Below, in pieces: positions 28,433 through 35,448 of a stretch of 45,832 nt of DNA. Source of the DNA: Thermoplasma sp. GTDB taxonomy: Archaea; Thermoplasmatota; Thermoplasmata; Thermoplasmatales; Thermoplasmataceae. Every line of letters starts with the position of its first letter. Position 1 is the first letter of the stretch. Below the pieces are notes generated by a model. The model was not told the DNA's origin. It saw only the letters and a list, made by a program, of their open reading frames with translations, and ran no database searches. The stretch lies in NCBI RefSeq assembly GCF_023256435.1, contig NZ_JAGDXM010000016.1:1-45832 (forward strand), given 5' to 3'. The position numbers were made by a program, and so were the translations under genes.

Positions 28433-31400
28433 ATGTTTGAAACTGTAGAGAGAAACGAAAACAAATTCGATCTTACATTGATATTCAAGAGATACGAAAC
28501 AGAGATAATACTGGGTATAATCTTTGTTTTCTATCTCTTTATGGCCAACTTCTTTTCTTGGTCGCAGGCTTTTGACTACCCGTTTCTCAATAATTCGGGT
28601 GGCAGTGATCCGTATTTCAATTATTATATTATTCAATATATATTAACATACCACACTCAGTTATTGCATGAATTGTTCCTCAATTATCCTATTGGGGCAG
28701 GAAATCCGAGACCACCATTCTTTCACTGGATGATAGCGTTTGTAGCCACTATACTTTCACCTATATTTGGTGTATATAAGGCTGCATATTACGCATTCGC
28801 CGAGTTCGATGCGGTATTCGGGGCGCTTCTTATAATACCAGTTTATTTGATGGCAAAGGAGGCCTTCGGTAAAAAGGCAGGTATAATAGCAGCATTCCTG
28901 TATGCACTTATGCCAGGAAACCTATCTGCCGGTATATTGACCGATGGTAGAATGCACACTCCAGAGCTCCTATTCGCATTCCTGGCCATATACTTCTTTG
29001 AGATGGCGATAAAAAATGCCAAGAAAGGCCTATTTATAAATAAACTATCGGATGTAAAGTCATATTTGCCGTCCATAATTTCCTACTATTCCAAGAATAA
29101 GAAAGCTACTATCTATGCCCTCCTGTCTGGAGCTGCTCTGGGGGGGCTGATGCTCTCCTGGCAGGGTTATGCCTACATTCAGGTAATCATACTTATATAT
29201 GTAGTCGTTCAGTCTGTGATAAATCTTCTCACAAGAAAGCCTACGGGCTATCTTACCTATATAACGACACTGTCTATGTTTCTTGGTTTTCTGATGGGCG
29301 CTTACTACTACTACGGTTCAGGGCTTATATCTGGCTGGTATACCCCAGAGGTGCAGATGGCGGTACTTGGTATCGCATTCCTTATCCTAATAAATATAAT
29401 TGGCAGGAAACCATGGGTGATAACAGTTCCGTTGACCATAGCCGTTTCTCTGGGTGGTTTCTTCGTCTTACTCAAATTGGAACCAACCACTATGCACACG
29501 CTCATATCTGGAGAAGGTTATTTCATCAAAACGAGGGTCTATACCACGATAGCAGAGGCAGCTCCGCTACCGCTTGGTGAATATATAAATAGTTTCGGTG
29601 TGGCTCAGTTCATATTTGGAATGAGCGGAATAGTCTATGTATTGTACAAATACGTGAAAGAAAAAACCGACATACTTATGTTTATTCTAGTCTTCTCTCT
29701 GGTCTCAATTTATATGAGCTTCGAAGCAGCAAGGTTCAATATTACTGCAGCTCCAGCTTATGGGATTCTAGGTGGCGCCGTATTGATCTATTTCATAGAC
29801 ATGGCCAAGCTAACAGAGGTCAGAAAGAGAAACATTGGAAGCTCTACGCTGAAGAAGACGCTGAAGGGAAATATAAACTGGGTTCATGCAAGCTTCGCAA
29901 TAATACTGGTATTGGTGCTTATAATACCTTCCGGTATCGGCATGGTGAATGCCGCGATACCTGAAAACAGTGCCTCAACAATAAATTCCCAAATCTATCA
30001 TGAGCTTCCACCTTTCCTCAGGGCTAACAATTCGAGCAACGCCCAATACTTCGGTTCATCAGGTTTCTACATAGCCAATTCATCTCAGCCGCTGGCTCAG
30101 TCCTTCGCATGGCTATCTACGCAGAACACCAATGTTCCTATAGATGAGAGGCCAGCGTACGTTAACTGGTGGGATTATGGTTTCCAGGAAGTTCTAGAAG
30201 GACAGCATCCAACGGTGGCGGATGACTTCCAGCAGGGTTACGTTCCAGCTGGTCAGATACTGCTATCTGGAAATCAGAGTCAGATACTTGGCGTGATGAT
30301 AGCAAGATTGATAAAAGGCTATGAAGCTAATTACCACAATTTTGCCCCAATAAACTCGACGATCACACAATATTTGGGATCAAAAGCTGCCCAGATTGTA
30401 TATAAATCATATGTTGATCCGGCGTCCTTTACCTCCACCGTACTTTCGAACACAAGCATCTATGGAAATTTCATTAATTCTTCAACACCAGACAATATCT
30501 ACTATGGATTCCTTAGGGGATATCTTGCCAGTACATTTAGTCTCAATACACTCAGCGATCTTTATGCTGCCCTTGAAGATGTTACAGGTTATTCAATTCA
30601 GTATATCCAGATCGATCACAATCTTTTCCCATTCTCTGGTGATAACCCGGGTATCTTTTATGCACCAGCATACCTTACAGATCAGGCGACATATACCTAT
30701 GATGGAGAGATAGTTCCATACACATATTATCAGATCTACGCATCCACTGATCAGGGTACATATCCGCTCAACCAGTTACCGACAGATCTTACGCCTGTTG
30801 GGTTTAACATAACGTATACCCCAGCATTCTATAACACATCAATATACAGATTTCTGGTCGGATATCCGCCTTCAGCGGTGGGGCAGTCCAACGGTATTCC
30901 TGGAATTTCGTATGGGGTTGGACAGTACGAGATAATGCCTGCCTGGAATATGAGCAACTTCGAGCTTGTATACCTTGGTGTTCCTTACAATCCATATAAC
31001 AATACAACTGCTCATCCAAACGCATGGAAGATAGTACCGATCCAGGAAGCGTATACCCTTACATCTGAAGGTAAGGGAAAGGCTCAGCTTCTGCCACCGC
31101 TGTCCGAAATATATAATGGTGCAGATCCGATCGTTGCCTATTATCCAGGTGCATATATAAACGGTAGAGTTACCACAGAATCTGGTTCTGGTGTTGGCGG
31201 GGTTTACGTCACTATATTCGATCAGTATGGTATACCCCATGAACGTGTAATCACTAATTCAACTGGGTATTACAATTTAATAGGTCTTCCAGGAAATGAT
31301 ACAGTTGTTATAAGCACTGGTACGTTGGATCCACTCACACTCATAGGATCTAATGTTATCTCATACTGGAAGGTTCATATATCAGATGCGCAGGCAGAGC

Positions 31401-34400
31401 ATATCTCAACATCGGTCAATTTGACAAGTGGTTTGCCAGATTATTATATTATACACAATTTTGTGATAAAGAACACAACAATAAGTGGTAACCTGGGATA
31501 TACTTACAGGACGTCGTACAATCGAACATCAACCGTTCATGTTAATACTGGAACTGTGATCCTTCACAACTCGACATACAACTATACGATTAGCAAAAAC
31601 GTTGTTAACGGTCAGTATGAATTTAATAGTATACCTCCTTATGATTATTCTGTATCCGCAATAATTGATGGAAAATATTATGGAAACATTACTATAGCGA
31701 ATACAACTGTAGGAGGGTCTTACGTATACAACGCATACGTTCCAATGAATACAGTGAATCTGACCGTTCTGGTAGGTAATACGCCCATAAATGGTCTCAC
31801 GATTTACGTTAACGGTGCTCCTTATAATGAAGTATCCGCAGAAAATGGCCATTATCTGATATATCTTCCCTCTGGCAACTATGAGATAAATGCCATGGAT
31901 CAGAATTCAACAACCGACACGATTTTTGAGTCGCTTTCCGGCTGGAACGAATTCATTAACATATCAGCCAACGCGTATCCTGTCGTTCATGTCAGTGGTA
32001 TTGCCTCTAATATTTCAACGCTCAAGTTTCTTTCAGACGGAAACTATGGAAATGTAACTACGTCTGTTGATATAAGCAATGGCAGTTATGCAGTATCCAT
32101 ACCGTCCGGATCATACACCGTATACGGTTACGGAGATGGATATGCGTTCCTTGGAACGTATACATTTACAACCGATACAAAATTGAACATCTCTGGATAT
32201 CCGTCCAGCTTGATTTCCCTGGAATCAAATGTCACCAACATATCTTTGAGCTCTGGATACTATTCCATAGTTACTGGCAACTCTTTCATATATTACCAGT
32301 ACAGTGGCAGCTCTGAGTTTAATATCAGTCTACCCGATGGATATTATTCCATATATTCATCGAGTGTTGTGGCCGGTCAGAGCTATTCGGCAAATATTAA
32401 AGTCCCATTGACGCGCAACCTCGCTTATCAGATGCATCTTGTCAACTCAACATTAACCGGTATAGTTTTATATAACTCCGGTGTTAGCCCATCTTACGAT
32501 TCAAATTCTTCTATAAGGAATGGTTATATCGTTCTTTACTCATACAGGACCCCTATTGAAGCTGTGCCAATTACGCCTTCAGGATATACTGATATAGTTT
32601 ATGCATCCAATACCGGGAGCCCGTCAATAAAGGTGATATCTCCATACTTTGAAAATTACACCGTCACAAATCTGGCACCCGCCATGACCCTCGGTATGAC
32701 TCCAATTAACATTCCAATTGATATAACGCTATACAATTCATCTATTCCAGCGGTGTTCAACGGTTATGTAGATCTTAGAGGAGAGTACGATTATAACCTT
32801 TCACTGATCAATGGCGTCATAGTTGGATCCGTTCTACCAGGAATATACACAATAACGATTCACAATGCTACAAACATCATAAAATATAATGATCGTCCAA
32901 TAGCTGCATCAAGGACGATAAAGCTACCTGTTCAGATATTAGCCAATGTATCTAGCAATCTAAGCAACCTGTATCTGTTCAGTCAAACTGGTTCGCGTGT
33001 TATGTTAGGAATTATTCCTGTTGGAACATACGAGGAATATTATATTTCAGGTTCAAGCTACCATCTCTCTATGTTTAACGTGACGAGGAACATTCAGATA
33101 AACAATATAACTACGGCATCTGGCTTCTACCTAAACCTCAGCAATGACCTTGGCATTTTCGGCAATTATACTGTTTCAGGGAATGGATACAAGATATCAG
33201 GCCTATCCAGTCTGGTCTTACCGGCAGGGAGTTACCATATAACATTCTCTGGTGCTCTTTCCAATTACACTGGATCCTTCTATGCAACAGGATATTCAAA
33301 TGTAACGTTAAATGCAAACACCAATGAAACAATAAATGTCACGCTTGTCCAGGTCATGACCAATTTGAGGATAGATACAGATCATCCATATTCCACAGTT
33401 TACCTGTATTATAATGGTTCTTTTTACTCCGGAGCCAATGCAAACGGTACGGGCATAGCATATTTCAAGGTTCCTACGAGAGATTATACCGTATATGCAT
33501 TGAGTCGCACGTACAGTACTGGTTACTTCGGTTCATTATCCATAAGCCCATTTGAAAGGTCAAAGACATTCAACGCAAGCATGACCGACTCCTACAAAGT
33601 CTTCATGTTGACGGCTGTAGATGGAGTACAGGAGCCCTTGAACGTCTCAATTTCTTCTGGAAATGCTAACATAAATGTAAACAGCTCGATCGGATACATC
33701 TATCTGCCGATAGGGAATTATACCTTTTCTTCACAGATAAGCAGTAGCGAAAGTTTCCCATCAGAGACGGTTAGCATAACATTCGCCAGCTCTTCCACCG
33801 TATACGTAAAAGGTCAAACATATGTGAACCTTAATTTGGTCAAAGAGAAGGTCTTTTCATTCTCTATAACTCAAATTTCCAAGATAAAGACCTTTAAATA
33901 TATTATCAAAAATGGAACGATTATCTACTATCCTTTGAGCTATAACTTCACAATTATGAATACTGGGAATTCAATCGTAAATATAACGCTTTCATCCGGT
34001 AATCTGAGTGAGTTTCGCATGATATTCTTCGGTAAGAACATAAGCGATGGAAAGTTGATGTTGATCCCGGGACAGGAAGATAATGTAACCGCAAACATAA
34101 CTCCACTAAAGATGATGAACTCCGGGCAAATAAGCATCCCAGTGAATATAACCTATAATGGCGGTAATACTACCAAATATCTTTACGCAAACTTTCCATC
34201 TATTGTTGCTTTCGATGTCTCTGCCGGAATAAGTTCAGTGAATGGGACTTATCTTGAATTACCAGTTATAATAAACAATACCGGCAATGCGAACATAACG
34301 GTAAATCTTAATATATCTGCGGCTGAGATAAACAATCTTTCGCTGCTAGATTATTCTGTTAAGTATCCATACAATGTTACTATACCTGCATACAGCTCCA

Positions 34401-34678
34401 GATCGGTGAATATAACTCTTATACCCACAACGAGCACTCCGGCACCGCAGGTTTCAGTTAAGGTTGTGGTCAGTGGTTATAATACTACGTATAGTTTAAC
34501 GCTGAATGCCAGTTATCCACAGCTCTCAAAGGCAAGCGTAGTTGCGAGTGGCAATGGAGTAATAAGCAATTATACATCGAATCCATATCTTAGCCTCATA
34601 ATCGGCTTGAGTTTGATCGCTGTGACCGTCATAGTTGGTCTAAGTGTATCAGCATACAGGGGGAGGCGCAGGAAATGA
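28433..34678 (+). CDS. aglB: Giant STT3/AglB oligosaccharyltransferase with repetitive ectodomain
   Basis: 2081 residues; ordinary archaeal AglB is about 600-1000. Residues 1-505 contain about 13 membrane spans with the acidic motif SDPYFNYY and DGRMHTPE. The catalytic WWDYG is at 579-583 (YVNWWDYGFQEV), and VMIARLIK is the expected downstream substrate-recognition helix. About residues 505-905 complete the AglB globular part. From about 905 to 2050 follow beta-rich repeats resembling carboxypeptidase-regulatory/Ig-like modules (GVGGVYVTIFDQYGIPHERV, TNSTGYYNLIGLPG), with dozens of N-x-S/T sites. Then a single anchor (about 2050-2072, IIGLSLIAVTVIVGLSV) and RGRRRK. A TATA-like TTTTATATAG lies 25-35 bp before ATG 28433. 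It transfers lipid-linked glycan to asparagine outside the cell. Confidence 0.9.
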   Translation: MFETVERNENKFDLTLIFKRYETEIILGIIFVFYLFMANFFSWSQAFDYPFLNNSGGSDPYFNYYIIQYILTYHTQLLHELFLNYPIGAGNPRPPFFHWMIAFVATILSPIFGVYKAAYYAFAEFDAVFGALLIIPVYLMAKEAFGKKAGIIAAFLYALMPGNLSAGILTDGRMHTPELLFAFLAIYFFEMAIKNAKKGLFINKLSDVKSYLPSIISYYSKNKKATIYALLSGAALGGLMLSWQGYAYIQVIILIYVVVQSVINLLTRKPTGYLTYITTLSMFLGFLMGAYYYYGSGLISGWYTPEVQMAVLGIAFLILINIIGRKPWVITVPLTIAVSLGGFFVLLKLEPTTMHTLISGEGYFIKTRVYTTIAEAAPLPLGEYINSFGVAQFIFGMSGIVYVLYKYVKEKTDILMFILVFSLVSIYMSFEAARFNITAAPAYGILGGAVLIYFIDMAKLTEVRKRNIGSSTLKKTLKGNINWVHASFAIILVLVLIIPSGIGMVNAAIPENSASTINSQIYHELPPFLRANNSSNAQYFGSSGFYIANSSQPLAQSFAWLSTQNTNVPIDERPAYVNWWDYGFQEVLEGQHPTVADDFQQGYVPAGQILLSGNQSQILGVMIARLIKGYEANYHNFAPINSTITQYLGSKAAQIVYKSYVDPASFTSTVLSNTSIYGNFINSSTPDNIYYGFLRGYLASTFSLNTLSDLYAALEDVTGYSIQYIQIDHNLFPFSGDNPGIFYAPAYLTDQATYTYDGEIVPYTYYQIYASTDQGTYPLNQLPTDLTPVGFNITYTPAFYNTSIYRFLVGYPPSAVGQSNGIPGISYGVGQYEIMPAWNMSNFELVYLGVPYNPYNNTTAHPNAWKIVPIQEAYTLTSEGKGKAQLLPPLSEIYNGADPIVAYYPGAYINGRVTTESGSGVGGVYVTIFDQYGIPHERVITNSTGYYNLIGLPGNDTVVISTGTLDPLTLIGSNVISYWKVHISDAQAEHISTSVNLTSGLPDYYIIHNFVIKNTTISGNLGYTYRTSYNRTSTVHVNTGTVILHNSTYNYTISKNVVNGQYEFNSIPPYDYSVSAIIDGKYYGNITIANTTVGGSYVYNAYVPMNTVNLTVLVGNTPINGLTIYVNGAPYNEVSAENGHYLIYLPSGNYEINAMDQNSTTDTIFESLSGWNEFINISANAYPVVHVSGIASNISTLKFLSDGNYGNVTTSVDISNGSYAVSIPSGSYTVYGYGDGYAFLGTYTFTTDTKLNISGYPSSLISLESNVTNISLSSGYYSIVTGNSFIYYQYSGSSEFNISLPDGYYSIYSSSVVAGQSYSANIKVPLTRNLAYQMHLVNSTLTGIVLYNSGVSPSYDSNSSIRNGYIVLYSYRTPIEAVPITPSGYTDIVYASNTGSPSIKVISPYFENYTVTNLAPAMTLGMTPINIPIDITLYNSSIPAVFNGYVDLRGEYDYNLSLINGVIVGSVLPGIYTITIHNATNIIKYNDRPIAASRTIKLPVQILANVSSNLSNLYLFSQTGSRVMLGIIPVGTYEEYYISGSSYHLSMFNVTRNIQINNITTASGFYLNLSNDLGIFGNYTVSGNGYKISGLSSLVLPAGSYHITFSGALSNYTGSFYATGYSNVTLNANTNETINVTLVQVMTNLRIDTDHPYSTVYLYYNGSFYSGANANGTGIAYFKVPTRDYTVYALSRTYSTGYFGSLSISPFERSKTFNASMTDSYKVFMLTAVDGVQEPLNVSISSGNANINVNSSIGYIYLPIGNYTFSSQISSSESFPSETVSITFASSSTVYVKGQTYVNLNLVKEKVFSFSITQISKIKTFKYIIKNGTIIYYPLSYNFTIMNTGNSIVNITLSSGNLSEFRMIFFGKNISDGKLMLIPGQEDNVTANITPLKMMNSGQISIPVNITYNGGNTTKYLYANFPSIVAFDVSAGISSVNGTYLELPVIINNTGNANITVNLNISAAEINNLSLLDYSVKYPYNVTIPAYSSRSVNITLIPTTSTPAPQVSVKVVVSGYNTTYSLTLNASYPQLSKASVVASGNGVISNYTSNPYLSLIIGLSLIAVTVIVGLSVSAYRGRRRK

Positions 34679-35448
34679 ACAAATCGATAATCTTTGTGGC
34701 AGTGATCGCACTTCTTATGATCGGAATGGCAGGAACTGCGGCCAATGCACAGACCGCGCCGTTCTACTCGAGTCAGGTGAGTTTCCCATCGTATGTCGGC
34801 ACAGGCCAGCAGTTCAATATAACAATAACAAGTACAGCTGGATTCAGCAATTATAATTACACGATTTATATAGCTGGTACGAATCTTACTGGAATAAGCC
34901 CAACCAACACTATACATCAGTATTACCCATCAAAATATAATTACACTGCCAGTATAACGGCTCCAGATGTTCCACAGACACTTTATCTCTACATAGTAAC
35001 ATCTGCTGATTTCGATGGCATCCAGGAGAATTATTCAGAGATGATAACGATCTCGGTTGTTTCACCTATCTATTTCCATGTATCTCTGAGTAATCCATCC
35101 GCATATCCAGTTTACAATGTTACGGCAACGTTTTATGTGGATGGCGTCCCCGTAATTCAAAAGACGGTGCCGAAAATAATGCCAGGATCAACTGTGGAGG
35201 TTAACGTCACATACGTTAATCCCAATCTTGGTCATGGATCACATACGCTTACGGTCACCTTGAACAACGCCAACATCAAAATAGATGGGAATGCAAACTC
35301 CATAACTACAAAATTTTACTACGGAACCCCGCCGAACTATGACTGGATATTCTATGTATTTGGCGTCGTATTGATATTTATGGTGATAATGGTCCTCGGA
35401 TCGAACAGAGGACGCAATCAGCCCAAATGGAAAAGATCAAAGAAATAA
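34675..35448 (+). CDS. Type I membrane glycoprotein-like protein coupled to aglB
   Basis: 257 residues. A signal peptide (1-26, IIFVAVIALLMIGMAGTAANA) is followed by a beta-rich ectodomain with several N-x-T/S sites (NIT, NYT, NLT, NVT) resembling Ig/CARDB-like archaeal surface modules. One membrane span (about 222-241, IFYVFGVVLIFMVIMVLG) and a basic tail (NRGRNQPKWKRSKK) complete it. It overlaps aglB by 4 nt (ATGA), so translation is coupled. It resembles the last ectodomain modules of AglB in composition. Whether it is an oligosaccharyltransferase accessory subunit or a substrate is unknown. Confidence 0.75.
   Translation: MNKSIIFVAVIALLMIGMAGTAANAQTAPFYSSQVSFPSYVGTGQQFNITITSTAGFSNYNYTIYIAGTNLTGISPTNTIHQYYPSKYNYTASITAPDVPQTLYLYIVTSADFDGIQENYSEMITISVVSPIYFHVSLSNPSAYPVYNVTATFYVDGVPVIQKTVPKIMPGSTVEVNVTYVNPNLGHGSHTLTVTLNNANIKIDGNANSITTKFYYGTPPNYDWIFYVFGVVLIFMVIMVLGSNRGRNQPKWKRSKK

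Follow-up and report, generated by a model that had tools for sequence, protein, structure and literature searches.

The stretch of Thermoplasma sp. DNA analyzed here (45,832 nucleotides of contig NZ_JAGDXM010000016.1; hereafter the window) contains aglB, a gene for an STT3-like oligosaccharyltransferase (OST) of 2081 amino acids (aa) in which the catalytic core is followed by a giant ectodomain, the tail, and by a second membrane anchor. The stop codon of aglB overlaps the start codon of a gene for a 257-aa membrane protein, a candidate partner subunit. Across the class Thermoplasmata, this anatomy is conserved, the tail keeps a near-constant length, the partner gene is coupled to aglB, and both tail and partner survive in relatives that have lost the active-site motifs.

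The aglB locus and its catalytic core

The features of the locus are listed below; A1, an alignment of 52 sequences, underlies the statements on invariance and conservation.

28433..34678, + strand: aglB, STT3-like OST of 2081 aa with a giant tethered ectodomain (uninterrupted ATG-to-stop open reading frame, ORF)
28433..29956, + strand: multi-pass GT-C membrane domain, residues 1–508 (hydropathy, AlphaFold2 helices, Foldseek match to Archaeoglobus fulgidus AglB, AfAglB)
28595..28615, + strand: SGGSDPY, residues 55–61, first acidic (metal-site) motif with D59 (at least 90% conserved in A1)
28943..28966, + strand: DGRMHTPE, residues 171–178, in place of the usual second acidic motif (alignments)
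29546..29560, + strand: TIAEA, residues 372–376, catalytic/metal Glu motif with E375 (invariant in A1)
29957..31132, + strand: C-terminal globular (catalytic) domain, residues 509–900 (conservation, AlphaFold2, Foldseek)
30167..30181, + strand: WWDYG, residues 579–583 (invariant in A1)
31133..31462, + strand: first carboxypeptidase-regulatory-like module, residues 901–1010 (Pfam CarboxypepD_reg, conservation)
31463..33892 (boundaries approximate), + strand: about ten further transthyretin/CarboxypepD_reg-like β-modules with recurring LPxGxY/PGxY turns, residues 1011–1820 (AlphaFold2, motif positions, strand count, profile matches)
33893..34576, + strand: two immunoglobulin (Ig)-like modules, residues 1821–2048, with conserved N-x-G-N motifs at about 1843 and 1949 (conservation and alignment, strand count)
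34577..34675, + strand: C-terminal membrane helix, residues 2049–2081, with the basic end RGRRRK (hydropathy, conservation, AlphaFold2)
34675..34678, + strand: ATGA overlap of the aglB stop and the partner start
34675..35448, + strand: candidate partner subunit, 257 aa (adjacency, CARDB)

The 2081-aa protein matches Pfam STT3 (PF02516) above the cut-off, and the solved Archaeoglobus AglB is a profile match with an E-value of 7e-36. In Foldseek, the AlphaFold2 model of residues 1–1160 fits AfAglB (PDB 7e9s) with an E-value of 6e-25 and a template modelling score (TM-score) of 0.70 on the target. With A. fulgidus AglB-L (PDB 3waj and 7e9s), it shares the membrane fold, the D59 and E375 motifs, WWDYG, and the globular domain. 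Hydropathy analysis gives many helices before residue 510 and a single clear later helix at residues 2054–2072. The cut-off of the archaeal STT3 model TIGR04154 of NCBIfam (archaeosortase A-associated) was missed (177.6 bits versus 450). A clear difference from AfAglB-L concerns the second acidic motif, which is D-H-H in that enzyme and ADHD in many class members, whereas DGRMHTPE stands in its place in the window AglB and its family. This motif is variable in further lineages of the class and is without any acidic residue in three of them (L040, L042, and L049); an Asp or Glu near DGRMHTPE could stand in for it. Judged by the defining features tested, apart from the altered second acidic motif, the enzyme is an AglB, and glycan transfer activity is predicted. 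Glycoproteins of T. acidophilum are N-glycosylated (Vinogradov 2012 as cited in PMC12448462). The Pfam STT3 scan found one STT3 each in the window genome and in the relative G082, and no second one in the window genome. A search for conserved stretches in the broad core alignment A4 gave no conserved window. An assembly artefact or read-through as the source of the long ORF is ruled out by same-length ORFs across the class.

Anatomy of the tail

AfAglB-L comprises 875 aa and ends after the globular domain, whereas the window AglB continues for about 1,180 more residues, has a second anchor, and is encoded next to a coupled gene for the partner. A first-pass annotation, made from the DNA letters alone, had described an STT3 core with WWDYG at residues 579–583, an enzyme end at about residue 905, and about 1150 further residues of Ig and carboxypeptidase-regulatory-like modules with a second anchor and dozens of N-x-S/T sites (sequons). 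The core is borne out by the intact ORF and the STT3 and AfAglB matches, the modules and anchor by the structure model and CarboxypepD_reg matches described below together with the helix at 2054–2072, and the sequons by their number, which is 60 in residues 901–2050 versus 25.6 ± 4.3 in shuffles. The enzyme end is correct for the globular domain, but the following module (residues ~901–1010) is conserved to the same degree as the catalytic domain and contains five invariant residues (T927, D930, H936, G945, and G954). Because of this conservation, the first module probably belongs to the working enzyme. In methanogenic relatives of family f9, described below, H936 is lost along with the active site, which fits a first module that is part of the enzyme and a remaining tail that is something else.

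In the AlphaFold2 model, the tail is a β-string (mean predicted local distance difference test score, pLDDT, of 87.5): an all-β chain with one long C-terminal helix, 63% strand, and 98 strands of at least three residues. Turn motifs and strands give an approximate count of 13 β-modules in the ~1,150-residue tail, mostly of the carboxypeptidase-regulatory/transthyretin type. Pfam CarboxypepD_reg was detected in 39 of the 39 tail members scanned and NOMO_5th in 21 of them. The best PDB match of the profile is human NOMO2 (E-value of 2e-27, three significant stretches), deposited as a subunit of the BOS complex (PDB 9c7v). NOMO (nodal modulator) and the window AglB both contain tandem transthyretin/CarboxypepD_reg-like modules followed by one C-terminal membrane helix. 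However, NOMO is a free-standing type I protein without an enzyme fusion, whereas the archaeal tail is fused to an OST and ends in the two N-x-G-N Ig modules before the helix. The NOMO2 matches are not co-linear, as largely the same early tail modules (profile positions ~150–366) fit several scattered places in NOMO2, and orthology was rejected on this ground. By these comparisons, the likeness is one of common module type and architecture.

NOMO has been compared to BaTIE and forms a 27–30 nm beads-on-a-string rod that affects membrane spacing in the endoplasmic reticulum (ER) (PMC8327139); the archaeal tail resembles the BaTIE string as well. A Foldseek search with the tail returned generic strings (axonemal Ig proteins, α2-macroglobulins, and BaTIE) at TM-scores near 0.1, as expected of a flexible chain. 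Cna-B/SpaA-type adhesin stalks and the MG strings of α2-macroglobulins are likewise beads-on-a-string β-sandwiches but, unlike these, the window tail is joined to a membrane enzyme. Neither sortase signals nor thioester or isopeptide chemistry was noticed in the window AglB, although no systematic search was made, and the 2081 residues include no Cys. No full-length tail paralogue was found in the same genome, which gave weak partial matches only. Past the first module, sequence conservation is low, and the tail is under purifying selection in the comparison with L005 (proportions of nonsynonymous and synonymous differences, pN and pS, of ~0.22 and ~0.80). Rate ratios (dN/dS) against L004 and L005 were unusable for most regions, as synonymous sites are saturated.

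Distribution of the long form, its partner gene, and degenerate relatives

AglB matches were present in 286 of 300 Thermoplasmata genomes. The 59 full-length class orthologues extracted are ~2,030–2,210 aa long, additional class members of 1,851–2,544 aa have a hydrophobic segment at their extreme end, and the long AglBs in the sampled Thermoplasmata are single-copy. Outside this class, roughly half of the phylum's sampled families have forms of ~2,300–3,190 aa, and the others have forms of ~950–1,430 aa. A terminal hydrophobic helix was found in every complete long form examined except L135, which falls short of the threshold. Six short forms were examined and have the first few tail modules only, without a C-terminal helix; a free-standing full-length tail gene was not found in 12 short-form genomes. 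A tree built from the catalytic part groups 37 of the 41 long forms in one clade, with 96 in the Shimodaira–Hasegawa-like approximate likelihood ratio test (SH-aLRT), and sets the four f9 sequences apart on a long branch, a placement that is unsure given the quick method. In other phyla, a membrane helix after the WWDYG motif was found in none of 48 archaeal AglBs, and the complete ones measure 664–1,298 aa; the sample consists of Thermoproteota/Nitrososphaerota, Asgard, DPANN, and Thermococcus records, 43 of them with an intact 3′ end, with Halobacteriota and most methanogen phyla outside the survey. The long tail is thus neither peculiar to Thermoplasma, given the long forms throughout the class and a larger clade of the phylum, nor universal in archaea, as far as the sampled phyla are concerned. 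The earlier statement that known AglBs end after the globular domain stands insofar as the 48 AglBs carry no such tail, but the long form is the rule in Thermoplasmata.

Several OSTs show other extensions. In families f47 and f55, the catalytic core of four OSTs (L118–L121; 3,174–3,188 aa) is preceded by ~350 additional residues, and each protein ends in a membrane helix. At a further f47 locus (L122), an OST of ~3,190 codons is divided between two frames (1603 and 1589 aa) with a 4-base overlap, owing to either a sequencing frameshift or a real split. Two lokiarchaeal AglBs, L226 (1,298 aa) and L204, extend ~770–780 residues past WWDYG with no terminal helix, a different and shorter extension.

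The partner protein has a signal-peptide-like N-terminus, a C-terminal hydrophobic membrane helix, and a basic end containing PKWK. It probably holds two Ig-like domains, the second of which is a CARDB domain (residues 125–206, above the cut-off). Its relatives, collected by iterative profile search, align as one family and lie directly 3′ of aglB at every one of the 73 class loci examined and at two loci outside the class (L135 and L136); the exact −4 overlap occurs in 45 of the 75 partner-bearing loci. At six loci outside the class that have no separate gene (L131, L132, L133, L134, L137, and L123), the OST itself ends in a CARDB-plus-helix module resembling the second half of the partner, a likeness that is weaker in the ~3,180-aa forms. 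This alternation of fused and separate modules is suggestive of a link between the OST C-terminus and the partner, and only suggestive because CARDB is common. That the partner split off directly from the C-terminus of an OST is no more than suggested, since the first domain of the partner has no convincing match there. The conserved adjacency and the overlapping frames provide the stronger argument, and we propose on this basis that the partner is a candidate stoichiometric subunit of AglB, with which it would form a physical complex. In the literature searched, from which most subscription journals were excluded, the partner, the long AglB length, and the tail-retaining degenerate relatives were not found.

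The degenerate relatives are methanogens, as indicated by the presence of McrA in 11 of 11 f9 genomes tested and in G160 of family f30. All eight of the f9 loci concerned, which represent seven genera, have altered R93 and W580 and lack H936. Six of them also lack D59 and seven lack E375, with the E375 of the remaining locus being out of context. The G160 enzyme (L150) has lost WWDYG and E375 and has kept D930 and H936, and one f9 genus (g74, L152) has kept the canonical motifs. The Pfam STT3 scan found no other STT3 in the genomes with a degenerate OST, and the core profile detected exactly one OST homologue in each of the nine searched. All of these degenerate OSTs (L138–L145 and L150) are encoded by intact ORFs of 1,851–2,544 aa with the long tail, the terminal helix, and the partner directly downstream. 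They are apparent pseudo-enzymes, predicted to be catalytically dead. Since tail, anchor, and partner outlast the active site, the tail probably has a function of its own.

Possible roles of the tail

We propose that Thermoplasmata use a single-copy archaeal OST whose extracellular side is extended by the chain of about 13 β-modules. The C-terminal helix would tie the chain back to the membrane, forming a loop or arch above it; anchored at both ends, about 13 modules could plausibly make an arch of ~15–30 nm, similar in scale to the unordered layer of unknown proteins (~20 nm) on the exterior of Thermoplasmatales (PMC12448462). Beyond the first module, which would be part of the working enzyme, the tail would be mainly a structural scaffold, like the beads-on-a-string ER protein NOMO. 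This scaffold may hold or space the enzyme in the unordered surface layer or where the export path ends, and both newly exported proteins and the co-encoded CARDB membrane partner, the putative stoichiometric subunit, may use it as a platform. Glycosylation of the tail would be a consequence of its location and not its purpose. Across the class, the sequon number varies from 9 to 83, i.e., ninefold, while the aligned tail length stays at 1,100–1,264 aa, which supports a scaffold role and favors it over a self-glycosylated coat. The explanation as a whole is one that we hold with moderate confidence.

Several points weigh against this scaffold. The scaffold and the partner complex are proposed from sequence and models, and the catalytic death of the methanogen enzymes is predicted from sequence. 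The NOMO matches could reflect a general module type, and the alternation of fused and separate CARDB modules depends on weak matches to a common domain. The arch lies outside the models, as the protein was folded as two pieces and the predicted TM-score (pTM) of the tail model is 0.50. Finally, the tail has roughly fivefold the dN of the enzyme core, and such rapid divergence would also be expected of a loosely constrained surface coat. A more far-reaching version of the scaffold explanation is possible but tentative: Thermoplasmata would have a two-subunit OST into which a NOMO-like scaffold is built, this scaffold and the partner would constitute a surface or translocon machine with a function independent of glycosylation, and most of the sampled f9 proteins would be catalytically dead carriers.

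Descriptions of the archaeal OST present it as an enzyme of one subunit (PMC8241124), and no proteins have been identified in the exterior layer of Thermoplasmatales (PMC12448462). The tethered NOMO-like ectodomain and the translationally coupled partner, both found class-wide, are concrete candidates for a second OST subunit and for proteins of that layer. The arrangement would be a prokaryotic case of a glycosylation enzyme and a NOMO-type scaffold in one molecule, and the methanogens with a degenerate OST constitute a natural experiment that separates the role of the tail from that of the enzyme.

In eukaryotes, ribophorin I/II, OST48, and TRAP are single-helix proteins with β-rich ectodomains that stand alongside STT3. 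The tail and partner might be a cis-fused analogue of accessory proteins of the eukaryotic OST or of translocon proteins (similar to ribophorin, TRAP, or NOMO), docking the enzyme at the Sec translocon and holding nascent chains for glycosylation or folding, a chaperone role that may outlast catalysis. The NOMO-type modules, with NOMO2 itself a BOS complex subunit, the coupled gene for a protein of β-sandwiches plus helix, and the persistence of both in relatives with a degenerate active site agree with this idea. However, co-linear homology to a eukaryotic OST or translocon subunit was not found, the partner matches only generic CARDB/Ig profiles, and no sec gene was recognized among the window ORFs read. 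Profile searches revealed no sequence relation of tail or partner to ribophorin I/II, OST48, or TRAP, and the likeness is one of analogy only. We consider this explanation doubtful.

The first-pass annotation had instead suggested that the tail may be a glycoprotein coat, which the enzyme could decorate in cis and which might be a main surface component, as Thermoplasma has no S-layer wall; on this view, the tail would supply part of the exterior protein layer. Indeed, the sequons behave as if selected: 58 of 60 class members are enriched over shuffles with a z of 2.5 or more, and within the genus sequon Asn residues are kept more often than other Asn (0.90 versus 0.61 in L004, where 51 of 59 sequons are kept, and 0.75 versus 0.44 in L006). 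This enrichment and preferential retention indicate that the tail is probably N-glycosylated in lineages with an active enzyme. AglB of Hfx. volcanii carries N-glycans itself (PMC8241124) and, together with the exterior layer of Thermoplasmatales, this makes a contributing surface role possible. Yet the tail density of 5.2 sequons per 100 residues is little above the 4.2 per 100 of a second surface-type protein with a membrane anchor in the window genome (L154, a 1007-aa frame with a weak tail-profile match) and is thus not exceptional for the cell; in the methanogenic relatives, it is only ~0.8–2 per 100. Given this similarity and the variation in sequon number at little change in length, the conserved function of the tail is unlikely to be that of carrying glycans. 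Tail and partner also persist beyond the active site, and enzymes would usually be too scarce to form a coat. An S-layer protein is the main lattice protein of a cell surface, and the window AglB is a multi-pass enzyme. As the main purpose of the tail, a self-glycosylated coat is accordingly unlikely.

It is quite improbable that the tail is a passive stabilizer or spacer without a specific partner, grown by module duplication and kept for an anchor useful in hot acid: its modules are repeated and similar with low conservation after the first, and a contribution to thermal stability has been suggested for extra structural units in other AglBs (PMC3703281), but the long form is present in methanogens too, the tail varies little in length, and it is accompanied by a specific partner gene.

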